Shown one piece after another: positions 33,955 to 55,201 of a stretch of DNA of 64,000 nucleotides. Source of the DNA: Limnobacter parvus. GTDB taxonomy: Bacteria; Pseudomonadota; Gammaproteobacteria; Burkholderiales; Burkholderiaceae_B. Position numbers and translations under genes: made by a program. Where the stretch lies: assembly GCF_024623725.1 (NCBI RefSeq), contig NZ_JANKHG010000027.1, forward strand, positions 186,001 to 250,000, in the 5' to 3' direction. The notes below the pieces were generated by a model that saw only the letters and a program-made list of their open reading frames with translations, did no database searches and was not told the origin of the DNA. How positions within the stretch are numbered: the first letter of the stretch is position 1; each line of letters starts with the position of its first letter.

Positions 33955-35289
33955 TTAGCGTGAAGAACGTTTCACTTTAAATGCGGTTGTCCATTCATTG
34001 AATAAATATTTGAAAAATGACCCGATCAGGCTCATCGATGGTTTGGCTTCAAGGCCGTCGGCCAAGCGGAAAATTTGCTGGTAGTACCAGGCCTGTGCGC
34101 CCAATACATTGATCAGCTTCAGTGGAAGTACAGGGCTGACCGGCGAGAAAATACCTTTGTCAGCCAGTTTCAACATGTGCTCGAAGCTGGCCGCGCGATC
34201 GATTTTTCCGTTCATCAATTGTTTGGGTGTGTCGGGGTGAGTGCAAAGTGGACGGCCCAGACCAATCACGTCGCACACGCCATCATTCAACGCTTCTTGC
34301 ATGGCTTCCCGGCTGCGAAACCCACCTGTAACCATCAAGGGCATGGTTGCCACTTCCCGAATCGCTTTGGCATAGTTCAAAAAGTACGCTTCGCGCTTCT
34401 TGGTACTTTCGCGCACAGCGGGTTGTTCGTCTTTCACAGAATCTGTGGCACCAGTGTGGCCCAGTAAGCGGGGTTGTTCATAGGTGCCGCCTGAAATTTC
34501 AAGCAGGTCGATTTTTTCATCGTTCAACCACTTCACTACCTGCAGGCATTCCTCATTGGAAAATCCGCCTTTGCGGAAATCGTCTGAATTCAACTTCACC
34601 GCAACCGGAAAATTGGCCCCTACAGCTTTGCGAACGGCACGCACTGCCTCCAGCAAAAAACGGGCGCGATTTTCAAGGCTGCCGCCCCACTGGTCAGTGC
34701 GTTGGTTGGTCACTGGCGACAGAAACGACGACAACAAATAACCGTGCGCGCCATGCACTTGTACACCAGTAAAACCAGCATCTTTGGCAATGCGGGCCAC
34801 GCGTGCAAAGCGTTGAATCAGGTCCAGAATTTCGTCTTCGCGCAAGGCACGTGGCGCTGCGTAATTGCCCAGCAGTTCAAGCTGAACTGCGGATGGGCCC
34901 ACGGGCTGGGTGGTCACGTAGCGTGGCGATTGCCGCCCGGCGTGTGAAATTTGCATCCACAATTGGTTGCCGTTGCTGGTGCCAGCCTTTGCCCACGCGC
35001 GCAGGGCGTCCATGCCTTGTGGTTCGCCTTGCTCGGGTGCAGGGTCAATGGATACATTGCCCGGGCGCTCCAGAATATTTCGGTCGATCAGCACATTGCC
35101 TGTAATCAAAATACCGGCACCACCCTCGGCCCAGCGTTTGTACAAGGTGGCGTGGCGCTGCGTGGCTTGCAGTTTGGCGTTGGCCACGCCTTCAGTCATG
35201 GCGGCTTTACACAAGCGGTTGGGTAACACAACGCCACAGGGCAAGGTAAAGGGTTGATTCAGTTCAATTGTGTTCATTTCATTGTTCAT
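33955..35289 (-). CDS. NADH:flavin oxidoreductase, Old Yellow Enzyme family
   Basis: FMN-dependent TIM-barrel oxidoreductase of 444 aa. Conserved points are LPNRLCKAAMTEG near 24, WMQISHAGRQSP near 105, VQVHGAHGYLLSSFLSP near 177 and VTGGFRSREAM near 330. There is no 4Fe-4S or C-terminal flavoprotein domain, so it is an OYE-type ene reductase and not a full 2,4-dienoyl-CoA reductase. It lies downstream of a TetR gene and a membrane-protein gene on the same strand. The ATG at 35277 is an equally possible start. Confidence 0.85.
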   Translation of the reverse strand: MNNEMNTIELNQPFTLPCGVVLPNRLCKAAMTEGVANAKLQATQRHATLYKRWAEGGAGILITGNVLIDRNILERPGNVSIDPAPEQGEPQGMDALRAWAKAGTSNGNQLWMQISHAGRQSPRYVTTQPVGPSAVQLELLGNYAAPRALREDEILDLIQRFARVARIAKDAGFTGVQVHGAHGYLLSSFLSPVTNQRTDQWGGSLENRARFLLEAVRAVRKAVGANFPVAVKLNSDDFRKGGFSNEECLQVVKWLNDEKIDLLEISGGTYEQPRLLGHTGATDSVKDEQPAVRESTKKREAYFLNYAKAIREVATMPLMVTGGFRSREAMQEALNDGVCDVIGLGRPLCTHPDTPKQLMNGKIDRAASFEHMLKLADKGIFSPVSPVLPLKLINVLGAQAWYYQQIFRLADGLEAKPSMSLIGSFFKYLFNEWTTAFKVKRSSR

Positions 35290-40226: not shown

Positions 40227-41327
40227 ATGAAAACCCGCATCACCGAGATGTTCAACATTCAATACCCCTTGGTTTGCCCGGGCATGACCTACGTGGCCGA
40301 CGCCAAGCTTGTTGCAGCCACGGCCAATGCGGGTGGCCTTGGCATACTGGCAATTGGGCATTTGAACCCGGAACAAACACTTGCTGAAATTCGCAAGGTA
40401 AGAAGCCTGACCAGCAAACCATTTGGCATTGGGTGCGCGCTGATTATGCCAGGGGCGCGCGAAAACCTTGAAGTGGCCTTGAATGAAAAAGTGCCCGTGA
40501 TCAATTTCAGCCTGGGCAGCGGTGCCGATGTGTGCAAACGCGTGCATGAATACGGCGGCAAGGTGATTGCAACGGTTGTAAATGCAAAGCATGCTCTAAA
40601 AGCTGAACAGGCAGGCGTTGATGCCTTGCTGGTCACCGGGCATGAAGCTGCGGCGCATGGTGGCTCAGTCACTTCATTGGTGTTGGTGCCCGCAATTCGG
40701 CAAGTTACAAAGCTGCCAATTATTGCAGCGGGCGGTTTTGGCACGGGCGGTGGCGTGGTGGCTGCCTTGGCTTTGGGTGCGGACGGCGTGGCCATGGGCA
40801 CGCGCTGGGCAGCGTCAAAGGAAAGCCCTGTTCACGCAAACACAAAAGAACTGATTGTTAAAAAGGAAGTGGAAGAAACCATTTACAGCAAGAACTTCGA
40901 CAGCATTCCTTGCCGTGTCATGACCACACCAAATTCAAAAAGAATTATGGCAAAGAAGTTCAACCCGATTCGCGCCATGTGGCGTGCTTACCTTGCAGCC
41001 CGTGAAATGAACAAGCCCCTGCTGGGTATTGTCAAAGACGTATTCAAGATGGGCTTGGAACAAACCCTGACCGTGACTTTCTATGGCGCAGCGGTTTTGC
41101 AAATCAAAAAAGCAACCATCGATGGCAACCACGCCCAAGGTGTGCAGCTGATCGGTCAGGTCCAAGGCCTGGTGCAAGACGTGCCCACGGTGGAAGAGCT
41201 TACCCAACGTGTGATGCGTGAGGTGGAGCAAGCACTTGCCGACATTAATCAATTGGCTGGGCATTCGGGCATCGACCATACAGCGGTTTCTGGCGCCGTT
41301 TCTGAAAAGCTAAGCCGCATCGCTTGA
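40227..41327 (+). CDS. Nitronate monooxygenase family protein
   Basis: FMN-binding TIM-barrel enzyme of 366 aa. Family marks are QYPLVCPGMTYVAD near 12, the catalytic His in TGHEAAAHGG near 137 and the phosphate-binding AAGGFGTGGGVVAALALGADG near 170. Members oxidise alkyl nitronates or act as enoyl reductase-like proteins; the substrate here is unknown. It precedes the GMC oxidoreductase by 120 bp on the same strand. Confidence 0.87.
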   Translation: MKTRITEMFNIQYPLVCPGMTYVADAKLVAATANAGGLGILAIGHLNPEQTLAEIRKVRSLTSKPFGIGCALIMPGARENLEVALNEKVPVINFSLGSGADVCKRVHEYGGKVIATVVNAKHALKAEQAGVDALLVTGHEAAAHGGSVTSLVLVPAIRQVTKLPIIAAGGFGTGGGVVAALALGADGVAMGTRWAASKESPVHANTKELIVKKEVEETIYSKNFDSIPCRVMTTPNSKRIMAKKFNPIRAMWRAYLAAREMNKPLLGIVKDVFKMGLEQTLTVTFYGAAVLQIKKATIDGNHAQGVQLIGQVQGLVQDVPTVEELTQRVMREVEQALADINQLAGHSGIDHTAVSGAVSEKLSRIA

Positions 41328-41449
41328 CCGGAATTATCAATTTTTTGACCCGGTATCGGCGTTTCATTTCGCCCGGCTTCCTCTATGATTAATGAATAAA
41401 CACAACAACTAGACTTGACACAAGCGAGTTTGAAATCCAGGAGGAGCAC

Positions 41450-43129
41450 ATGAAGACAGAACACGACTACATTGTGGTGGGTGGCGGTACAGGCGGTTGT
41501 GCAATGGCCGGTCGGCTTAGCGAAGATTCAACCCTGGATGTGTGTTTGCTTGAAGCGGGTGGCGATGGCACGGGAAACACCATCAATATTCCCAGTGGCG
41601 CGGTGGTCATGCTGCCCACCAAAATCAACAATTGGGCATTCGAAACCACACCACAAGCTGGGCTGAATGGTCGCAAAGGGTATCAGCCGCGTGGCAAGTG
41701 CCTGGGTGGGTCTTCGGCCATCAACGCCATGGTGTATGTGCGTGGCACTGCATCGGATTACGACCGTTGGGCCAACGAAGAAGGCTGCAGTGGTTGGTCT
41801 TACAAAGAAGTGCTGCCGTATTTCAAATTGAGCGAATGCAATGAACGAATTCGTGATGCCTACCATGGCAACAGCGGCCCTTTGAATGTGGCCGATTTGC
41901 GTTCCGACAATCCCTTCCAGCAAATTTATCTGGAGGCTGGCAAACAGGCAGGGTTCAAGATCAACAACGACTTCAATGGCGCAGACCAGGAAGGCGTTGG
42001 CATTTATCAAGTGACTCAAAAAAATGGTGAACGCTGGAGCGCAGCCCGCGCCTACTTATTCCCGCACTTGCACCGTAAAAATTTGACTGTACACACCAAA
42101 GCCATGGTTCAGCGTGTGTTGTTTGAAGGCAAGCGCGCGGTGGGGGTAGAGGTTTCAATCAACGGCCAACTTGCGGTTTTGAAAGCACGCAAGGAAATTA
42201 TCCTGACAGCAGGTGCCATTCAAACGCCGCAGTTGTTGATGGTTTCCGGCGTTGGTGATTCCAGCGAGTTGGCTCGCCACGACATTGAGGTGGTTCATCA
42301 CCTGCCAGGCGTTGGCAAGAATTTGCAGGATCACCCCGACTTCATTTTTGGCTATTCCACGAAGAGTCTGGACACCCTCGGCTTGTCACTTCGCGGCAGT
42401 TTCAGGCTGCTGCGTGAAATTTTCCGCTATCGCCGAAATCGCCGAGGTGCACTCACCAGCAACTTTGCTGAAGGTGGCGCATTCCTGAAAACCAAGCCCG
42501 ACATGAAAGACCCGAATGTGCAGTTGCACTTTGTGGTTGCTATGGTTGACGACCACGCCCGCAAGATGCACCTTGGCCACGGTTTCTCATGCCATGTTTG
42601 CCTGTTGCGGCCGCACAGCCGGGGCAGCCTGACCTTGCAGGGCAACACCATGGACACACCACCGGTGATCGACATTGGATTTTTGAAAGACCCGCGCGAC
42701 ATGGAAGAGTTGGTCGAGGGATTCAAGCTGACGAGAAAGATCATGCATGCACCGGCACTGGCCAAGTGGATTTTGAAAGACAAATTCACTGAGCATGTAC
42801 ACACCGATGACGAAATTCGCGAGGTACTGCGCAATCGTGTGGACACCGTCTACCACCCCACTGGCACCTGCAAAATGGGCAGTGACCCCATGGCTGTGGT
42901 GGACCCGCAGTTGCGCGTGCACGGCCTTGAAGGATTGCGAATTGTGGATGCGTCTGCCATGCCAAGTTTGATCGGTGGCAACACCAACGGGCCTGTCATG
43001 ATGATGGCCGAAAAAGCAGTGGACATGATCCGTGGCGTGTCGCGCGTGAAAGCGCTTGAACAGGCGGAGCAAAACGCCAAGGTGAGGCAGGAACAGTTGC
43101 ACCAGGCACTGGTCCCGCAGCCGGTTTAA
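41450..43129 (+). CDS. GMC-family FAD-dependent alcohol/choline dehydrogenase
   Basis: Flavoprotein of 559 aa. The FAD dinucleotide fold is at 4-35 (DYIVVGGGTGGCAMAGRLSE), GMC signature 1 is near 82 (GKCLGGSSAINAMVYVRG), signature 2 near 255 (GAIQTPQLLMVSGVG), and the C-terminal catalytic His/Asn region includes YHPTGTCKMG and GNTNGPVMMMAEK. It belongs to the choline dehydrogenase/AlkJ group and could oxidise long-chain alcohols formed by the nearby AlkB. AGGAGG precedes the ATG strongly. The thioesterase gene follows at once. Confidence 0.9.
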   Translation: MKTEHDYIVVGGGTGGCAMAGRLSEDSTLDVCLLEAGGDGTGNTINIPSGAVVMLPTKINNWAFETTPQAGLNGRKGYQPRGKCLGGSSAINAMVYVRGTASDYDRWANEEGCSGWSYKEVLPYFKLSECNERIRDAYHGNSGPLNVADLRSDNPFQQIYLEAGKQAGFKINNDFNGADQEGVGIYQVTQKNGERWSAARAYLFPHLHRKNLTVHTKAMVQRVLFEGKRAVGVEVSINGQLAVLKARKEIILTAGAIQTPQLLMVSGVGDSSELARHDIEVVHHLPGVGKNLQDHPDFIFGYSTKSLDTLGLSLRGSFRLLREIFRYRRNRRGALTSNFAEGGAFLKTKPDMKDPNVQLHFVVAMVDDHARKMHLGHGFSCHVCLLRPHSRGSLTLQGNTMDTPPVIDIGFLKDPRDMEELVEGFKLTRKIMHAPALAKWILKDKFTEHVHTDDEIREVLRNRVDTVYHPTGTCKMGSDPMAVVDPQLRVHGLEGLRIVDASAMPSLIGGNTNGPVMMMAEKAVDMIRGVSRVKALEQAEQNAKVRQEQLHQALVPQPV

Positions 43130-43132
43130 GTG

Positions 43133-43570
43133 ATGGCTGAACCGTTCCAGTTTTTATTTCGGGTTCGATACGGGGAATGCGACGCGCAAGGCGTCGTGTT
43201 CAACGCGCGTTACGGCGATTACGTGGATTTGGCGCTCACGGAATACATGCGCGCAGCAATTGGCGGCTACAACGAACTGTTGCACATGGGGTTTGAAACC
43301 CAGGTGGTGCGATTGCTGACCGAGTGGAAAAGCCCAGCGCGATTTGATGAAGTGTTGAAAACCAGCGTCTACCCAAGCCATTTCGGCAACACCAGTTTCA
43401 CTTTGAATTTTGAATTTGTGAACGCAAGCACCAATGTTTTGGTGGCTACATCACAAGCCACTTACGTGTTGGTCGATGTCAAAGAATTTACCAAGCAAAT
43501 TATTCCTGCCCAATTAAAAAGCGCCCTTCAAAAGGGCGCTGTGGGCAAGCAGATCAATCAGGCTGGCTAA
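43133..43570 (+). CDS. Hot-dog fold acyl-CoA thioesterase (4HBT type)
   Basis: Cytoplasmic thioesterase of 145 aa with the 4HBT signature RYGECDAQGVVFNARYGDY near 12-30, containing the catalytic Asp. Length is normal. The stop of the GMC gene is 3 nt upstream; GTG 43130 is an alternative start. It probably hydrolyses acyl-CoA thioesters in the same alkane/fatty-acid context. It is convergent with alkB, 33 nt away. Confidence 0.85.
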   Translation: MAEPFQFLFRVRYGECDAQGVVFNARYGDYVDLALTEYMRAAIGGYNELLHMGFETQVVRLLTEWKSPARFDEVLKTSVYPSHFGNTSFTLNFEFVNASTNVLVATSQATYVLVDVKEFTKQIIPAQLKSALQKGAVGKQINQAG

Positions 43571-43603
43571 TGTTGATCTGCGTATTCCCGCAGAAATCAG
43601 TTC

Positions 43604-44764
43604 TTATGCTGCCAACGAGTAACGTTGAATGACGCGTGCGCGCTTGCGTGGATGGATGTTGATCTTCTGTGCATTCTTTCCAGCCACTTCCAGCAACCGT
43701 GGGTTCATTACAGCAAACCAAAGTGGTGGAACGTAAGCGACCAGAAACATTCCGAAGTATCCGGATGGCAGGCTGGGTAATTCCGGAAAATCGCGCAGCG
43801 ATTGGTAACTGCGCGCCGGGTTTGCATGGTGATCCGAATGACGCTGCAACTGAAACACCACGAGGTTGGAAACCAAGTGATTGCTGTTCCAGGAATGGTG
43901 TGGCGCGCAACGCTCGTACTCGCCGTTGGGCAATTTTTGGCGCATCAGACCATAGTGCTCAATGTAGTTTGCACTGGTCAACTGGAATGCACCCCAGAAG
44001 GCCACCACGGCCAACACCGGCACCATGGGCCAGCCGAACATCACAATCAATGCGGTGTACAAAACCAAAGTCATTGCACCGCCCTGCAGCATTTCATTGC
44101 CCACATTCCAGCGGCTTTTTCCAGCCCGCTCAAGGCGCTCACCTTCCAGCCTCCAGGCGCGTTTGAAGGCACCGGGAATTTCACGCAACATGAACTCGTA
44201 AATGTGTTCGCCCATGCGGGAAGTGGCCGGGTCTTCCGGTGTGGCCACATCGCGGTGGTGCCCACGGTTGTGTTCAATCGAGAAATGACCGTAGCCACCC
44301 AACGACAAGGTGATCAGCGCAAGGGCTTTGTCAAGTTTGCGTTTCTTGTGGCCCATTTCATGGCCAAGGTTCAAGCCAAAACCCAGCATGGCACCGGTAG
44401 TAATCGCCACAGCCAGCCAATGAATCAAATGAAGTTCGTGCGTGGCCAAGAAGACCACATTGAACAGAAACCCGAAAGTGATGATTGGCACCAACAAGTA
44501 GGTGATTACACGGTAGTAGGTGGTGTTTTCCAGTTCGGGCACGGCCTGTTCGGGCGGGTTCTGTTTGTCTTCACCAAACACGAAATCAAGCACCGGCAAG
44601 CCGAGGTAAAAGAAAGCCAGGAAGATCCACAGCCATTGGGTGTGACCCGTGTAGAGATACATGATCGGGCCCAGCGGGGCTGCGAAAGGCGCAATTACGG
44701 ACAACAGCCAAAGAAATTTCTTGGGGTCTTTGTATTGGGTTGCGGGCATTGTATTTGAAGTCAT
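43604..44764 (-). CDS. alkB: Alkane 1-monooxygenase, AlkB type
   Basis: Integral-membrane diiron hydroxylase of 386 aa that turns medium-chain n-alkanes into 1-alkanols. All conserved motifs are present: HEMGHK (135-140), EHNRGHH (164-170), NYIEHYGL (266-273) and LQRHSDHH (306-313), with about six hydrophobic segments. It needs rubredoxin and rubredoxin reductase, which are not seen next to it. It diverges from an AraC regulator 130 bp away, the usual arrangement for controlled alkane hydroxylases. No strong ribosome binding site is seen; ATG 44749 is an alternative start. Confidence 0.93.
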   Translation of the reverse strand: MTSNTMPATQYKDPKKFLWLLSVIAPFAAPLGPIMYLYTGHTQWLWIFLAFFYLGLPVLDFVFGEDKQNPPEQAVPELENTTYYRVITYLLVPIITFGFLFNVVFLATHELHLIHWLAVAITTGAMLGFGLNLGHEMGHKKRKLDKALALITLSLGGYGHFSIEHNRGHHRDVATPEDPATSRMGEHIYEFMLREIPGAFKRAWRLEGERLERAGKSRWNVGNEMLQGGAMTLVLYTALIVMFGWPMVPVLAVVAFWGAFQLTSANYIEHYGLMRQKLPNGEYERCAPHHSWNSNHLVSNLVVFQLQRHSDHHANPARSYQSLRDFPELPSLPSGYFGMFLVAYVPPLWFAVMNPRLLEVAGKNAQKINIHPRKRARVIQRYSLAA

Positions 44765-44894
44765 TTATTCGCACCGTGTTGTTCAGGATGGTTTCATCTT
44801 AGGCTTGCGATGCGATGGACAACACCGCACAGGGTGGCATAAGATCGTCAAAAAGTGACAAAACATAAAAAACAGAAATCATCGAGACAAAAAC

Positions 44895-45935
44895 TTGCCC
44901 AAGTCCTTTCACGAATCAGTCGCAGCGTTAAAGCCTGCCCTGCACCCGGTGTACGCGCGTTTGCTGTGTGCAGAACTGCAGCGCCGTGGGTTTGCACCCG
45001 CAGCAATTCTGAAAGGTTTGCCCCTGGATTGGCAGCATTTGCATGAACACAACCAGTTCATGAGTTTTGATCAAATGCGCCAATTGATCGAGCGTGGGCT
45101 GGCGCTCAGCGATTGCCCCTGGCTTGGCCTTGAGGTGGGCTTGCGCACGCCTGCATCTGCGCATGGCACCTTGGGTGCAGCCATGATTGCCAGCAAAAAT
45201 TTGCCCAGTGCCATGTTGTTGTTGCAACGGTATGCAGGTTTGCGGCAGAACCTGGCCAATCTAAAGTTTGAACATGAACCCGACTTTGCAGCCGTGCTTG
45301 AGGAGTGGGTTGATTTGGGCCCTGTGCGCGAATACCTGCATTGCCAATTGTTGGGTGGTTTGGTGCAGTTGCTCACCGCGATGACCGGGCAGGAATTGCC
45401 ACCTTTGCTGCGCATCGAATGGCCTTTCGATGCCCCCCTATGGGCAGATGAATATCAGCGCATGGCGCACGGAAACGTATTTGCCTGTGCCCAGTTGCGG
45501 GTGGTGTTACACCCTTCCTTGGTGAACAGCCCAAGCCTGGCCGCCGACGATGAGGCTTTGCAGCATTTGCTTCGCGACTGCGATTTGCAGTTGCAGCGTT
45601 TGCAAGCCGGCGGCACACTGGCGCAGCGTGTGCGCGTGCAGTTGCAACAAACTGAGGGGCACATGCCCACCTTGCAAACCATGGCCGCACAAGAAAACCT
45701 GACCGAGCGCACCTTCATGCGCCACTTGCAGGCCGAAGGCACCAGCTTTCAGCAGTTGCTGGATGAGGTTCGACACGAGCGAGCATGTTGGCTGCTTGCG
45801 CACACCAACAACACGGTTGAAGACATTGCCTACAATTTGGGTTTTGAAGACGCATCGAATTTTAGCCGCACTTTCAAGCGTTGGTGTGGCCAAACGCCAA
45901 GCGACTTTCGGCAAACACACAGCAACAAACACTGA
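44895..45935 (+). CDS. AraC-family regulator divergent from alkB
   Basis: Transcription regulator of about 346 aa. The N-terminal AraC-type ligand domain begins VYARLLCAELQRRGF, and two C-terminal HTH motifs are present (MAAQENLTERTFMRHLQAEG and VEDIAYNLGFEDASNFSRTF). No ATG is available in frame upstream; TTG 44895 is the only early start, GTG 44949 an alternative. Its position opposite alkB and the similarity to alkane-responsive AraC regulators make it the likely activator of alkB. Confidence 0.85.
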   Translation: MPKSFHESVAALKPALHPVYARLLCAELQRRGFAPAAILKGLPLDWQHLHEHNQFMSFDQMRQLIERGLALSDCPWLGLEVGLRTPASAHGTLGAAMIASKNLPSAMLLLQRYAGLRQNLANLKFEHEPDFAAVLEEWVDLGPVREYLHCQLLGGLVQLLTAMTGQELPPLLRIEWPFDAPLWADEYQRMAHGNVFACAQLRVVLHPSLVNSPSLAADDEALQHLLRDCDLQLQRLQAGGTLAQRVRVQLQQTEGHMPTLQTMAAQENLTERTFMRHLQAEGTSFQQLLDEVRHERACWLLAHTNNTVEDIAYNLGFEDASNFSRTFKRWCGQTPSDFRQTHSNKH

Positions 45936-45975: not shown

Positions 45976-49112
<3,137 letters not shown>

Positions 49113-49190: not shown

Positions 49191-50171
49191 ATGAGCTCAA
49201 TGTCCAAATCCGTCACCCTGTTTCTTCGCCTGTGCCAAGGGCGTTTGCTGGCTGCCCGAAATCCTGAAAAGGTGTGGCGGGTTGGCGAGCGCGTCACGAA
49301 CCTGCTGCAAAAGCTTTCCCGAATGCCTGCGGGTTGTAGCGTGCAGCACCGCACCGTGAACGGCGTGCCGGTAGAAATAATCGAGAACCACAGTGCGCAT
49401 GCCAACAGCCGTCAAACTTTGTTGTTCTTGCATGGTGGTGGCTTTGCGTTTGGCAGCGCAGCGAATTACCGTGCCTTCGTTGCGCGCTTGTGTAAAAAAT
49501 CGGGCATTGCCCGCGCCTGGGTGCCCGATTACACCCTCATGGGCAAAGCCCCTTTCCCCGCTGGCTTGAACGATGTGGTTGCTGTGTGGAAAGCCTTGCT
49601 GCATGAACACGGTCAGGATGAATTGCTGCTGGCCGGCGATTCAGCGGGCGGTAATTTAAGCCTGGCCTTGTGCCATGCCATGAACTCAAGTGAGCTTCGA
49701 TTGCCCACACGTGTGTACCTCAGCTCGCCCTGGCTCGATCCTTCCCTGGGTGAAAGTGATTTGCGCCCCGAGGTGGTGGATGCATTCCTGGGTCACAACG
49801 AAGCGCAGGCCCGTGACTGGCTCAAGCGCATGTTCGCCACCCCCTATGCCAGTGTGCACAATCCAGAAAACCCGCTTATCTCGCCTTTGTTGGGCGACCT
49901 GTCGCGCTTGCCGCCCGTGTATGTGCAGTGTTCCGCCAATGAAGTGTTCATGGTGGACAGCTTAAGGCTGGTGAAGCAGGCGCAGCAACTGGGCACCGTG
50001 TGTCATGTTGATGTGTGGTCGGGTGTGTTTCACGATTTCATTTTGTTTTCTCCATCCATGCCAGAAGGGCGTGCCGCATTTGCTGCGGCAGCGGCATGGC
50101 TTGGGCATGGCGAAGTTCGCCGCCCACCTTACTTTCAAACCCGCATTCGCCAGTTGTCATCACCTCTTTAA
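49191..50171 (+). CDS. Alpha/beta hydrolase, hormone-sensitive-lipase type
   Basis: Esterase/lipase of about 326 aa. The oxyanion motif HGGGFAFGS is near 82, the nucleophile elbow GDSAGGNLSLAL near 150 and the late His in SGVFHDFILFS near 285. These features match the HSL (family IV) esterases. The start is uncertain: ATG 49191 or 49200, with GTG 49173 also open. It ends 9 nt before the acyl-CoA dehydrogenase gene, so it could release a fatty acid that the following enzymes activate and oxidise. Confidence 0.85.
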   Translation: MSSMSKSVTLFLRLCQGRLLAARNPEKVWRVGERVTNLLQKLSRMPAGCSVQHRTVNGVPVEIIENHSAHANSRQTLLFLHGGGFAFGSAANYRAFVARLCKKSGIARAWVPDYTLMGKAPFPAGLNDVVAVWKALLHEHGQDELLLAGDSAGGNLSLALCHAMNSSELRLPTRVYLSSPWLDPSLGESDLRPEVVDAFLGHNEAQARDWLKRMFATPYASVHNPENPLISPLLGDLSRLPPVYVQCSANEVFMVDSLRLVKQAQQLGTVCHVDVWSGVFHDFILFSPSMPEGRAAFAAAAAWLGHGEVRRPPYFQTRIRQLSSPL

Positions 50172-50180
50172 GGTTCTCGC

Positions 50181-51323
50181 ATGTTCACCACTTACTTCAA
50201 TCAAACCCACGAGGAAGCACGTCGCAATATTCGTCGCTTCGTCGAGCGACATATTCAACCCAACATCAATGAATGGGAGGAGGCCGGTACTTTCCCGCGC
50301 GAAATTTACAATTTGGCTGGCGAGGCGGGCATTCTTGCCATCGGTTATCCGGAAGAACTAGGTGGCAATTCCGAAGGCGATTATTTCATGAGCCTGGTGG
50401 CCACTGAAGAATTGTTGCGTGCTGGCTCCGGTGGTTTTTTCTCGAGCCTCATGTCGCACGGTATTGCCTTGCCGCCCATTGCCAAATGGGCCAGTGCTGA
50501 AATGAAAGCGCGCATTGTTCCCGAGGTGTTGAGTGGCGACAAAATTATCGCATTGGCAGTGACCGAACCGGGTGGTGGTTCAGACGTGGCCAACCTGAAA
50601 ACCCGTGCGGTGGATTGTGGCGACCACTACAAAGTGTCGGGTTCCAAAACCTACATTACCTCGGGCATACGTGCTGACTATTACACAGTGGCTGTGCGCA
50701 CAGGCGGCGATGGTTATGGTGGTATCAGCATGCTGTTGATGGAAAAGGGCATGCCCGGTTTCACCACAGGCCAGCCTTTGAAAAAAATGGGATGGTGGTG
50801 CAGCGACACAGCTGAACTATTCTTCGACAATGTGGTGGTGCCGAAATCAAATTTGATTGGCATTGAAAACGGTGGCTTCATGATGATCATGACCAATTTC
50901 GAGGCCGAGCGCTTGGGCCTGGCATGCTACTCAAATACTTTGTCGGAACTGGCTTTGAACGAAGCGCTGGCCTACGCCAAAAACCGCAGCACCTTTGGCA
51001 AGCCCTTGAGCAAACACCAGGTGATTCGCCACAAGCTGGCTGACATGGCCACACAGCTGGAAGCCAGCCGCGAATTCACTTACCGGGTTGCAGCCCGCAT
51101 GCAGGCAGGCAAACCCGCTTTGAAAGAAGTGTCGATGGCCAAAAACTTTGCCACCAAAACATCGGACTTTATTACCTATGAGGCCGTACAAATTTTTGGT
51201 GGCATGGGCTATATGCGTGAAAGTTTGGTGGAACGTTTGTACCGCGACAATCGTATTGCATCGATTGGCGGTGGCACTTATGAAATCATGAACGAAATTA
51301 TCGGCAAGCAGTTGGGCTTGTAA
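50181..51323 (+). CDS. Acyl-CoA dehydrogenase
   Basis: FAD enzyme of 380 aa, normal family length, with the signatures ALAVTEPGGGSDVANLKT (124-141) and VQIFGGMGYMRESLVERLYR near the C-terminus. The late catalytic glutamate position reads IGGGTYEIM (Gly), but FEAERLGLA (E243) supplies the base at the position used by long-chain/isovaleryl-type dehydrogenases. It makes the first oxidation step of the acyl-CoA. AAGG precedes the ATG. It is followed after 16 nt by the MaoC gene. Confidence 0.92.
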   Translation: MFTTYFNQTHEEARRNIRRFVERHIQPNINEWEEAGTFPREIYNLAGEAGILAIGYPEELGGNSEGDYFMSLVATEELLRAGSGGFFSSLMSHGIALPPIAKWASAEMKARIVPEVLSGDKIIALAVTEPGGGSDVANLKTRAVDCGDHYKVSGSKTYITSGIRADYYTVAVRTGGDGYGGISMLLMEKGMPGFTTGQPLKKMGWWCSDTAELFFDNVVVPKSNLIGIENGGFMMIMTNFEAERLGLACYSNTLSELALNEALAYAKNRSTFGKPLSKHQVIRHKLADMATQLEASREFTYRVAARMQAGKPALKEVSMAKNFATKTSDFITYEAVQIFGGMGYMRESLVERLYRDNRIASIGGGTYEIMNEIIGKQLGL

Positions 51324-51339
51324 AAAAGGAATAAACACC

Positions 51340-52221
51340 ATGTTGGCAGATTACCCCCTGAAGTATTTGGCTTTGCACTGGCCCAACATTCGGTCCATGG
51401 GCTGGGCAGCCATTCGCAATGCAACCCCCATCACCCGGCCTGGCACTTTGCCGCAACTTCCTGTGCACCACAGCATGCACGTGCCTGCACTCAACAATGA
51501 ATTGCTGGATCAATACGTGGCCTGGACAGGTGCGCCAGCCAATCGCTACAGCACAGAAATGCCAGCGCACTTTTGTAGCCATTGGGCCATGCCCATGTTG
51601 GCCAAGCTGGGCAGCCTTGCACCCTACAATTTGTTGTCGCTGTTGAATCAGGGTTTGCGCATGCAAATTCACTCGCCTCTGAAGCGCAGTGAGGCCATTT
51701 CGTTGCGCGGCAGCTTGATGGATGTTACTGACGATGGCGACAAAGTGCGTATTCACACGCGCGTGCAGGCCAGCAACCCCAAGGGTGAATTGGCCATGGT
51801 CATCGACAGTTATTCCACTGTGCCCCGCAGTAAACCGGCGGGCAAAAGCAAACCCGCCAAGCGCGATGAATTTGAATTCAACACCGCAGGCCACTGGAAT
51901 GCCGAGGAAGACGACGGCCTTGCATTCGCCATGCTGACCGGCGACTTCAACCCCATACACACCATCAAGGCTGTGGGCAAACGCACGCGCTTTAGAAGTT
52001 GTATTTTGCATGGCTTCGGGCAACTGGCCCGCACTTGGGAAGTGCTGCACAACGCAGGGCATTCAGTGGCCGATCTGGATGTGCGCTGGATCAAACCACT
52101 GCCTTTGCCCAACGCAGGCATACAGGTGCAAACCAGTACTCAAAAGGATTCTGAAGGTTACACACAGCTGCGTTTGGCTGCCGCAGATGGCACCCTGCAC
52201 ATGGTGGGGCGCTTCAAATGA
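51340..52221 (+). CDS. MaoC-like acyl dehydratase / enoyl-CoA hydratase 2
   Basis: Protein of 293 aa. The C-terminal hot-dog domain (about 190-290) carries the hydratase 2 motif LTGDFNPIHT with the catalytic Asp and His, plus RSCILHGFG. The N-terminal half is a degenerate hot-dog-like region, as in double-hot-dog hydratases. It would hydrate the enoyl-CoA made by the upstream dehydrogenase. AAAGGAATAAACACC precedes the ATG. The stop overlaps the thiolase-like gene (ATGA). Confidence 0.87.
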   Translation: MLADYPLKYLALHWPNIRSMGWAAIRNATPITRPGTLPQLPVHHSMHVPALNNELLDQYVAWTGAPANRYSTEMPAHFCSHWAMPMLAKLGSLAPYNLLSLLNQGLRMQIHSPLKRSEAISLRGSLMDVTDDGDKVRIHTRVQASNPKGELAMVIDSYSTVPRSKPAGKSKPAKRDEFEFNTAGHWNAEEDDGLAFAMLTGDFNPIHTIKAVGKRTRFRSCILHGFGQLARTWEVLHNAGHSVADLDVRWIKPLPLPNAGIQVQTSTQKDSEGYTQLRLAAADGTLHMVGRFK

Positions 52222-53513
52222 AGTCGATTCGAAAAGCAGTGATTGTCGATGGTGTGCGCACCCCCTTTCTCGATTCGGGTGGTGCGTATTCCCAGCTCAT
52301 GACCTATGAACTGGGTGGAAAAGCCATTGCAGGTTTGGTGAGCAAAACAGGCATTGATGCAAACCGCGTGAACATGGTGACCATGGGCACGGTGCTTCAT
52401 GAAATTGAAACCTCGAATGTGGCCCGTGAAAGCATGTTGAGCGCTGGCTTGCCAGCCACAATTCCTGCATACACCACCTCGATGGCCGGCTTGTCGGCCA
52501 GCGTGGGTTTCGCCAATTTGTGCGACATGATTGCTCTGGGTCGAATTGATGTGGGCATAGCGGCGGGTGTGGAAAGTTTCTCCGACATTCCAATTCGCTA
52601 CTCGCAAAAAATTCGGCGTGCAGCCATGAAGGTGCGGCAAGATTCTTCCGCAAAAAACATATTGAAGAATTTGGCCAGCCTTCGCCCAGCTGATTTGAAA
52701 CCCGAGATGCCCACCGGCACCGACTTCACCACCCGCAAAACCATGGGTGTGTGCGCCGAACAAATGGTGCAAAAGTTCAAGGTAAGCCGCGAAGATTGCG
52801 ATGCATTCACGGCGCGCAGCCACCAGTTGGCCATTGAGGCACTGAACCAAGGTTATTTTGAGGGCACCATTATTCCGGTTCAGGTGCCCGGCTTTGAACA
52901 TCCCATTACATCGGATAACACGCCTCGCAAAGACAGTAATATTCAAAAGCTGTCCACCATGCGAACCATTTTCCGAAAAGACGGCGTAATCACCGCAGCC
53001 GGTTCTTCCCGCTTCACGGACGGCTCTGCCGCCTTGTTGGTCACCAGCCTGGAAGCTGCAAACAACATGGGTCTACAGCCCCTGGCCGAGGTGGTGGATT
53101 ATGAATTGGCCGCGGTGAAAAGCCTGGAAGAAGAAATGTTGCTGGGGCCGGCAGTGTCCATTCCCAAGTTGCTCGCAAGAAACAAGCTCAGCATGGCCGA
53201 CATTGATGTGTGGGAACTTCACGAAGCCTTCGCCGCTCAAATTCTCGTGAACATCGCTTGCATGCAGCGCAGCGAGTTTGCAGACGAGTATTACAAGGGC
53301 CAGGTGCCGGGCGAACTGCCAATCGACAAGTTGAACACTTGGGGCGGCTCACTTTCCTTGGGCAATCCATTTGCAGCCACGGGCATTCGCTTGCTCACCA
53401 CCGCAGCCCGCAGGTTGCAAGTGGAAAACAAGCGATACGCGGTAGTATCTAGTTGTGCCGGTGGAGGTTTGGGAGCGGCAATACTTATAAAAAACATGGA
53501 GACAAACACATGA
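52218..53513 (+). CDS. Thiolase-family protein lacking the catalytic Cys and GHP His
   Basis: Thiolase-fold protein of 431 aa, closest in pattern to FadI/HADHB long-chain thiolases (AAGVESFSDIPIRYSQKIRR; FTDGSAALLV; WELHEAFAAQILVN; NTWGGSLSLGNPFAATG). By anchored alignment, the nucleophilic Cys position is Gly91 (SMAGLSAS instead of RAC/QxC), and the GHP histidine is Asn383 (LGNPF). His335 (HEAF) and Cys413 (SSCAGGG) remain. The frame is intact and normal in length, so this is not simple decay. Classic thiolysis looks impossible; a changed reaction or a structural role is likely. It overlaps both neighbours by 4 nt. Confidence 0.88.
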   Translation: MKSIRKAVIVDGVRTPFLDSGGAYSQLMTYELGGKAIAGLVSKTGIDANRVNMVTMGTVLHEIETSNVARESMLSAGLPATIPAYTTSMAGLSASVGFANLCDMIALGRIDVGIAAGVESFSDIPIRYSQKIRRAAMKVRQDSSAKNILKNLASLRPADLKPEMPTGTDFTTRKTMGVCAEQMVQKFKVSREDCDAFTARSHQLAIEALNQGYFEGTIIPVQVPGFEHPITSDNTPRKDSNIQKLSTMRTIFRKDGVITAAGSSRFTDGSAALLVTSLEAANNMGLQPLAEVVDYELAAVKSLEEEMLLGPAVSIPKLLARNKLSMADIDVWELHEAFAAQILVNIACMQRSEFADEYYKGQVPGELPIDKLNTWGGSLSLGNPFAATGIRLLTTAARRLQVENKRYAVVSSCAGGGLGAAILIKNMETNT

Positions 53514-55201
53514 GCGCAGCGCATTACGAGAAATTCGAAACCCTGCTGGATTGCCTGGACCATTGGGCGGCCAACCAACCCAACAAGGTTTACTTCACTC
53601 AGCCTTTCTCGGCCGAGAAAACCGTGGATTACACCTGGGCCCAGGTGGCTGACCAAGTAAATCGCATGGCTGCGTATTTGCAATCACTGAATCTGCCCGA
53701 GAAAACCCACATCGGCATTCTGGGTAAAAACAGCGCCCACTGGATCATAGCCGACTTGGCCATTTGGCGGGCAGGGCATGTGTCCATTCCCCTGTACCCC
53801 ACGCTGAATGCTGAAACTGCTGAATATGTGCTGGAAAACAGCGACTCGAAAATGATCTTCATCGGCAAGATGGATGAATTGTGGCGCGTGGTCGAAAAGG
53901 GCATTCCCACCGACATGCCCACCATCACCTTGCCCTTGGCGCCGCAACTGGCCCATGCCAAAAAATGGGACGACATTGTGGCTGCCACCGCACCCACTCA
54001 GAACCCCGTGAAGCGCAGCAAAGATGAAATGGCCACCATGCTTTACACCTCGGGCAGTACCGGCAAACCCAAGGGTGTGATGATTTCTTTCAATGCCATG
54101 ATCAGCGCGCTGCGCGGTACATCGAAAGTCATGAGCTTCAGCAACACCGACCGAATGATTTCCTACCTGCCATTGGCCCATGCGGCTGAACGTGCCATTC
54201 TGGAAACTGGCTCGCTGTTCTATGGCTTTCATGTGTACTTCTCGTTCGGGCTCGACAGCTTTATTCAAGATTTGCAACGCGCACGCCCAACCCTGTTTTT
54301 CTCGGTGCCGCGTTTGTGGACCAAGTTTTACAACGGCATTTGCGGAAAAATTCCGTTGGGTGTGCAGCATGTTATTTTCCGCATTCCAATTCTTTCCGGT
54401 TTATTCAAAAAGTTCTTGCTGAAGAAACTGGGCTTGTCGGAAGTGCGAATGGCCCTCAGCGGTTCCGCTCCGTTAGCGCCCGCCTTGATGTCGTGGTATC
54501 GCAACCTGGGCCTTGATTTGCTGGAAGGTTATGCCATGAGCGAAAACTTCGCCTATTCGCATTGCAGCTTGCCCGGCAAAGTGCGCGTGGGTTACGTGGG
54601 CAACACCTACCCAGGCGTGGAATGCAAAATTTCTGATGTGGGCGAAGTGCTGGTGAAAAGCCCATGCAACATGATGGGCTATTACAAAAACCCGGAACTC
54701 ACCGCGCAGTCTTATACCGAAGACGGATTTCTGAAAACAGGCGACATGGGCGTGATCGACGAACAAGGTCGATTGAAAATTACAGGCCGCGTGAAAGAGT
54801 TGTTTAAAACCAGCAAGGGCAAATACATTGCACCTGTGCCGATTGAGAACCGCTTGAATGGCCATGAGTTGATTGAAGCGGTGTGTGTAACTGGGCCTTC
54901 ATTTTCACAGCCATTTGCTTTGGTCATGTTGCCGCTTGAAGAACACAAACAAGTGGAGCAAAACCCCAATGGAGCGGCACGGGTTGAAAGTGAAATGACC
55001 GAACTACTGAACCATGTGAATGGTCAGCTTGAGGCCCATGAAAAGCTGAGCTGCATTGTGGTGGTGAAAGACTTGTGGAGCATGGAAAACGGCTTCCTGA
55101 CCCCCACCATGAAGATCAAGCGCAATGTGATTGAGGCCAATTACTTGCCAAAGGCAGAAGGCTGGGTTGCCCTGAAAAAACCTGTGGTGATTGAGCAGTA
55201 A
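53510..55201 (+). CDS. Long-chain acyl-CoA synthetase (AMP-forming)
   Basis: Adenylate-forming ligase of 563 aa that activates a carboxylic acid to acyl-CoA. P-loop MLYTSGSTGKPKGVM lies near 180, EGYAMSENFAYSH near 340, and the C-terminal hinge (KTGDMGVIDEQGRLKITGR) near 410-430. The pattern matches FAA1/ACSBG-like long-chain ligases. ATG 53510 overlaps the thiolase-like stop (ATGA); the earlier in-frame ATG lies inside that gene. It is the last gene of the operon and is followed by a strong terminator. Confidence 0.92.
   Translation: MSAAHYEKFETLLDCLDHWAANQPNKVYFTQPFSAEKTVDYTWAQVADQVNRMAAYLQSLNLPEKTHIGILGKNSAHWIIADLAIWRAGHVSIPLYPTLNAETAEYVLENSDSKMIFIGKMDELWRVVEKGIPTDMPTITLPLAPQLAHAKKWDDIVAATAPTQNPVKRSKDEMATMLYTSGSTGKPKGVMISFNAMISALRGTSKVMSFSNTDRMISYLPLAHAAERAILETGSLFYGFHVYFSFGLDSFIQDLQRARPTLFFSVPRLWTKFYNGICGKIPLGVQHVIFRIPILSGLFKKFLLKKLGLSEVRMALSGSAPLAPALMSWYRNLGLDLLEGYAMSENFAYSHCSLPGKVRVGYVGNTYPGVECKISDVGEVLVKSPCNMMGYYKNPELTAQSYTEDGFLKTGDMGVIDEQGRLKITGRVKELFKTSKGKYIAPVPIENRLNGHELIEAVCVTGPSFSQPFALVMLPLEEHKQVEQNPNGAARVESEMTELLNHVNGQLEAHEKLSCIVVVKDLWSMENGFLTPTMKIKRNVIEANYLPKAEGWVALKKPVVIEQ

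Follow-up and report, generated by a model that had tools for sequence, protein, structure and literature searches.

A thiolase-fold protein without the nucleophilic cysteine, co-inherited with a MaoC hydratase in Limnobacter and relatives, as a possible retro-aldolase

Introduction

In thiolases, according to the account in PMC3406046, a cysteine accepts the acyl group and the histidine of the GHP motif helps to form an oxyanion hole, while the asparagine of the NEAF motif holds a catalytic water and the cysteine of the CxG motif moves the alpha proton. The thiolase fold has also been put to a different use. The steroid aldolase CtSal is a thiolase-fold protein with glycine at the nucleophile position and is described as cleaving a 3-hydroxyacyl-CoA by a retro-aldol reaction, with the beta-hydroxyl lying near the backbone amide of a glycine and the tyrosine of a YDCY motif acting as the base (PMC12329534). 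It works together with a MaoC hydratase (PMC12329534, PMC11321319). For the aldolase Ltp2, the reported substrate is a tertiary alcohol, which is not oxidisable and is cleaved instead, and the cleavage is said to pull the unfavourable hydration forward (PMC11321319). Among the papers listed in searches of the open-licence PMC literature, from which subscription journals are largely absent, we found no description of a cysteine-less aldolase of the HADHB/FadI type.

Here we describe a gene of Limnobacter parvus that belongs to the HADHB/FadI lineage and carries glycine where the nucleophile is expected. The window, that is, the whole stretch of 64,000 nucleotides that was analysed, corresponds to positions 186001-250000 of contig C18 in a genome of 3.18 Mb that is 99.87% complete, and the closest named relatives, which are Limnobacter records, show protein identities of 90-95%.

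Results

Gene layout and domain content

The gene lies last but one in a run of seven on the forward strand. At the head of the run stands a FadH/OYE-type flavoenzyme (46054-48087; Pfam Oxidored_FMN and Pyr_redox_2), followed by an AraC-family regulator (48087-49112; Pfam), an HSL-type alpha/beta hydrolase or esterase (49194-50171; Pfam Abhydrolase_3, with the NCBIfam HSL subfamilies below cut-off), an acyl-CoA dehydrogenase (50181-51323; Pfam), a MaoC-domain protein that is a probable enoyl-CoA hydratase on the basis of Pfam MaoC_dehydratas, alignment and co-occurrence (51340-52221), the thiolase-fold protein (52218-53513) and an AMP-forming acyl-CoA ligase (53510-55201; Pfam AMP-binding). 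As originally predicted, the thiolase-fold gene is full length and overlaps both neighbours by 4 nt: its reading frame starts with ATG and is open over 431 codons, and ATGA is found at each junction, with the end of the MaoC gene at 52221 and with the ligase start codon at 53510. Besides the flavoenzyme at the head of the run, the window encodes a second one of the FadH/OYE type (33955-35289); the best NCBIfam matches of the two (mycofactocin-system, bilirubin reductase and BaiCD) are all below cut-off.

The protein has the Pfam domains Thiolase_N and Thiolase_C and passes the cut-off of TIGR01930, the general acetyl-CoA C-acyltransferase model. It scores 109.8 bits with Thiolase_C and 28.3 bits with PF22691, thus barely passing the latter's cut-off of 28; PF22691 is the family that we take to mark the branch with an SCP2-thiolase-type C-terminal domain.

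Several partners of conventional beta-oxidation were looked for among the seven operon proteins with Pfam and NCBIfam, and neither a 3-hydroxyacyl-CoA dehydrogenase nor a FadJ/HADHA-type alpha subunit, which would combine hydratase and 3-hydroxyacyl-CoA dehydrogenase, was found there. An aldehyde dehydrogenase was likewise absent, both from these seven and from 25 scanned neighbours of distant relatives (mechanically called open reading frames in GC-rich genomes). Those 25 neighbours included one FadB-type protein, which lies beside a thiolase of its own (L079), and one epimerase-type SDR (L084), while one 568-aa reading frame (L077) gave no Pfam match. Elsewhere in the host genome there are two FadB-type proteins, each within 2 kb of ordinary thiolases, and these dehydrogenases could serve the operon. 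DUF35 (PF01796) had no match in the operon or anywhere in the genome.

Active-site residues and fold

HMMER aligned residues 3-425 of the protein with HADHB (6dv2; 326 bits) and residues 7-424 with FadI (8bnu; 259 bits). In these alignments, which are ungapped near residue 91, Gly91 (codon GGC, 52488-52490) falls on the nucleophilic cysteine and Asn383 (codon AAT, 53364-53366) on the GHP histidine; MAFFT gives the same placement. An AlphaFold2 model (mean pLDDT 91.3, pTM 0.89) retrieved HADHB chains as the top Foldseek matches (E 1.5e-50, TM 0.89/0.92). The two substitutions claimed in the original prediction are confirmed. Also as predicted, His335 of the HEAF motif (53220-53222) and Cys413 of the CxG motif, here CAGGG (codon TGT, 53454-53456), are retained. 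The gene is therefore an intact member of the HADHB/FadI thiolase lineage in which the cysteine has become Gly91 and the GHP histidine Asn383. Judged on these residues, the ordinary thiolase mechanism is excluded; the protein has lost the half of the active site that takes the acyl group and keeps, in Cys413 and His335, the half that handles the enolate.

A conserved clade under purifying selection

The combination of Gly91, His335, Asn383 and Cys413 (G/H/N/C) is not peculiar to this genome. A search of 268 genomes of the family (E up to 1e-60) gave matches in 21, of which 13 carry a G/H/N/C protein and the other eight Cys-type thiolases only; of the 13, one belongs to another genus and the rest, among them the genome of the window, are 12 of the 16 Limnobacter genomes. 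A search of the class (369 genomes) added two genomes, and in one further order of the same class G/H/N/C proteins were present in 13 of 85 genomes, one of them already counted. A sample of 398 genomes from the phylum (E up to 1e-80) yielded no new member and, besides the window's own protein, two Cys-type FadI-like thiolases. Plasmid records gave 204 matches, all below 60% identity; among the best 30 of these none exceeded 37%, and the three designated H1, H2 and H25 are Cys types.

We aligned 72 thiolases taken from the best matches listed, after removal of identical sequences. At positions 91/335/383/413 they read G/H/N/C in 28, C/H/H/C in 34 and C/N/H/C in 10, and no intermediate that had lost one residue and kept the other was seen among the 72. 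The 28 G/H/N/C members are distinct and full length, come from six families of one class, range down to 46-47% identity, and all contain HEAF (HEAFS in one of them). A maximum-likelihood tree separates them from all other sequences by a branch with support of 100/100, which was recovered in all 200 bootstrap trees. The deeper branching order is unsure, since the grouping of the C/H/H/C types is weak (87/42) and the program flags long branches between groups. Met89, Ser93, Arg127 and Trp375 are, together with Gly91 and Asn383, among the residues that every member of the clade shares and that occur seldom or not at all in the C/H/H/C types.

The GGC and AAT codons are each one base away from a cysteine or histidine codon, yet both are fixed. 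In seven of eight clade pairs dN/dS was 0.04-0.17, the eighth pair being saturated; the gene is under purifying selection, in agreement with the earlier view that it is maintained. We also considered Cys102 as a substitute nucleophile and rejected it: this position is cysteine in 25 of the 28 members and valine, serine or alanine in the other three, which leaves Cys413 as the sole invariant cysteine.

Co-inheritance with MaoC

The MaoC hydratase is a co-inherited partner of the thiolase-fold protein. In the further order of 85 genomes (that of G292), with a threshold of E up to 1e-20, a MaoC match was found in 9 of the 13 genomes with the thiolase-fold protein versus none of the 72 without it (Fisher p 1.7e-9, or 0.0028 by genus, neither corrected for descent). 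In all nine the MaoC gene lies upstream on the same strand, and in eight the gap between the aligned segments is 50-152 bases. The ninth (G1064) has MaoC about 1.1 kb away, with an esterase gene in between. That esterase (L077, 9645-10643) is of the HSL type, as is the one in the window's operon. Within Limnobacter, all 12 genomes that encode the protein also have MaoC, and it is missing from the four that lack the protein; completeness is only 65% and 85% for two of these four. Strong as the link is, it has exceptions: four positive genomes of the order (G1043, G1079, G1080 and G1081) gave no MaoC match at this threshold. The DxNPxH motif was kept in all 13 aligned MaoC sequences, one of which comes from the operon of a paralogue. 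As to the earlier question whether the substitution tracks with the five-gene operon, it travels with MaoC and, in several genomes, with the ligase, rather than with the whole operon.

A gammaproteobacterial metagenome-assembled genome (L021, 7300-8520) retains the dehydrogenase and the thiolase-fold protein only as fragments, and MaoC was not found, while the regulator, esterase and ligase still match at 88-95% identity. This suggests that dehydrogenase, MaoC and thiolase-fold protein were lost together.

Alkane genes and other leads to a substrate

Upstream of the operon, the window contains genes for a nitronate monooxygenase/FabK-like protein, a GMC alcohol dehydrogenase, a thioesterase, an AlkB-like alkane monooxygenase and an AraC regulator (40227-45935), which is probably an alkane-oxidation cluster. 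The AlkB-like gene (43604-44764, opposite strand; 449 bits to the alkane monooxygenase structure 8sbb) is found upstream in all five of the Limnobacter loci (L011-L015; 90-95% identity) whose sequence extends far enough. AlkB is not seen within the stretch covered at the Limnobacter loci that are more distant (L020 and L070, apparently one genome, L071 and L072). Esterases recur at the window, L077 and L083. In a distant relative (L079, 7112-14315) the thiolase-fold gene, without MaoC, has a flavin monooxygenase and a ligase on one side and a DUF1302 protein on the other. The best match of this monooxygenase, below cut-off, is PtlE, presumably a Baeyer-Villiger enzyme; the host genome has FMO-like proteins, none of them on the window's contig. 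For both AraC regulators, that of the upstream cluster and that of the operon, the best NCBIfam match, again below cut-off, is CypR, which is described as an alkane-linked activator (PMC12472514).

Discussion

We propose, with a probability of roughly one in two, that the protein encoded at 52218-53513 is a retro-aldolase that evolved from a HADHB/FadI-type thiolase separately from the known aldolases. The proposal arises because CtSal likewise combines glycine at the cysteine position with a MaoC hydratase partner. In such a pathway, the acyl-CoA dehydrogenase would make an enoyl-CoA, MaoC would hydrate it to a 3-hydroxyacyl-CoA, and the thiolase-fold protein would then break the Calpha-Cbeta bond without forming an acyl-enzyme. 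The acetyl-CoA enolate could be held by what remains of the oxyanion hole, formed by Asn383 together with a His335-bound water, and be protonated by Cys413. A base (His335, Cys413 or water) would take up the proton of the beta-hydroxyl, whose oxygen would lie near the backbone NH of Gly91; His335 would correspond to the CtSal tyrosine by the order of motifs only. Acetyl-CoA would be released together with an aldehyde or, from a substrate branched at the beta-carbon, a ketone. Retro-aldol cleavage of a 3-hydroxyacyl-CoA would therefore make a 3-hydroxyacyl-CoA dehydrogenase dispensable, and a cleavage that pulls the unfavourable hydration forward would account for the joint inheritance of hydratase and aldolase.

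As to function, the original prediction had named another acyl-CoA reaction, a partnership with a separate thiolase and acyl-CoA binding; the evidence favours, short of proof, the first, in the form of aldol cleavage after hydration. Its suggestion of a non-standard acyl pathway stands as a possibility, and its exclusion of ordinary thiolysis by the known mechanism is supported by Gly91 and Asn383 in 28/28 members.

The loss of two catalytic residues and the strict co-inheritance with MaoC would also be expected if the protein had no catalytic activity and served as an acyl-CoA-binding partner that stabilises the hydratase or feeds it. We consider this unlikely, given that Cys413 and HEAF, for which a pure binder would have no need, are invariant in 28/28 members and that four genomes of the order carry the thiolase-fold protein without a MaoC match. 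The kept residues would equally stabilise an enolate in other reactions, either a condensation of the aldol or Claisen type that needs no acyl-enzyme or the decarboxylation of malonyl-CoA or a 2-carboxyacyl-CoA, and the related TbSLP is reported to decarboxylate malonyl-CoA, albeit very slowly (PMC12329534). Such chemistry also seems improbable here: the neighbouring dehydrogenase, hydratase and ligase look degradative, and neither a carboxylase nor a ketoreductase was found among the seven operon proteins.

That the protein is still a thiolase, using another residue or a neighbouring cysteine as nucleophile, would agree with its score above the TIGR01930 cut-off but is very unlikely, since Cys102, the candidate named beforehand, is replaced in 3/28 members, the sole invariant cysteine is the thiolase acid/base Cys413, and the GHP histidine is lost too. 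A sequencing error or a decaying gene, suggested by the single-base distance from the usual codons and by the decayed remnant in L021, can be set aside, as the same four residues occur in 28/28 distinct full-length sequences, close relatives and named isolates included, and dN/dS is far below 1.

Returning to the retro-aldolase, a broader scenario can be sketched, although we regard it as speculative and rather doubtful. The beta lineage of the trifunctional protein may independently have become a C-C lyase which, together with the hydratase, would provide a last stage of beta-oxidation that needs no dehydrogenase (hydration followed by aldol cleavage) for tertiary 3-hydroxy substrates, for instance beta-methyl-branched acids from AlkB-oxidised hydrocarbons, releasing a methyl ketone for flavin monooxygenases and the operon esterase. 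An aldolase would be useful for a beta-branched acid because its 3-hydroxy form is tertiary. A beta-branched substrate is a lead only, and the accounts of branched-alkane degradation in PMC6850023 and PMC12472514, as far as they go, feature conventional beta-oxidation genes and lend it no support.

The residues of the protein argue against the label acetyl-CoA C-acyltransferase that TIGR01930 confers. Should it prove to be an aldolase, C-C lyases would have emerged from the thiolase fold in at least the SCP2-type and the trifunctional branch, by the same Cys-to-Gly step, and the operon would provide a genetic entry point to the way in which bacteria deal with acyl-CoAs that ordinary beta-oxidation cannot oxidise.

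Comparison with known systems

HADHB and FadI are the best sequence and Foldseek matches, at about 34-41% identity, and share the HEAF motif and the CxG acid/base cysteine; they differ in that their cysteine and GHP histidine are glycine and asparagine here, in 28/28 members, and in that the operon is without an alpha subunit. A FadA2-type paralogue in the same genome (C18:112674-113951; about 33% identity) is also of the HEAF type and has an adjacent MaoC gene, but it keeps both the cysteine and the GHP histidine and sits between this MaoC gene and a FabG-type SDR. MsTLP1 resembles our protein in that glycine replaces the nucleophilic cysteine and the GHP histidine is lost; its motifs, however, are given as YSCF, GGL and NGG, so that the CxG cysteine is gone, and it has an extra C-terminal barrel (PMC3406046), whereas the thiolase-fold protein has HEAF, GNP and CAG, keeps CxG and is without the extra domain.

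The Sal/Ltp2/SLP group differs in having YDCY or YDHF in place of HEAF, an SCP2-thiolase-type C-terminal domain in place of the classical Thiolase_C, and a DUF35 partner, which is absent from the host genome. CtSal in particular comes from a different branch of the thiolases and relies on the Tyr/Cys pair of YDCY, while the acid proposed here is Cys413 of CxG. What this group and our protein have in common is the thiolase fold without a nucleophilic cysteine, replaced by glycine in CtSal (PMC12329534), an acyl-CoA dehydrogenase for an earlier step (PMC12329534, PMC11321319), and a partner hydratase of the MaoC type, which at our locus is encoded by an adjacent and co-occurring gene.
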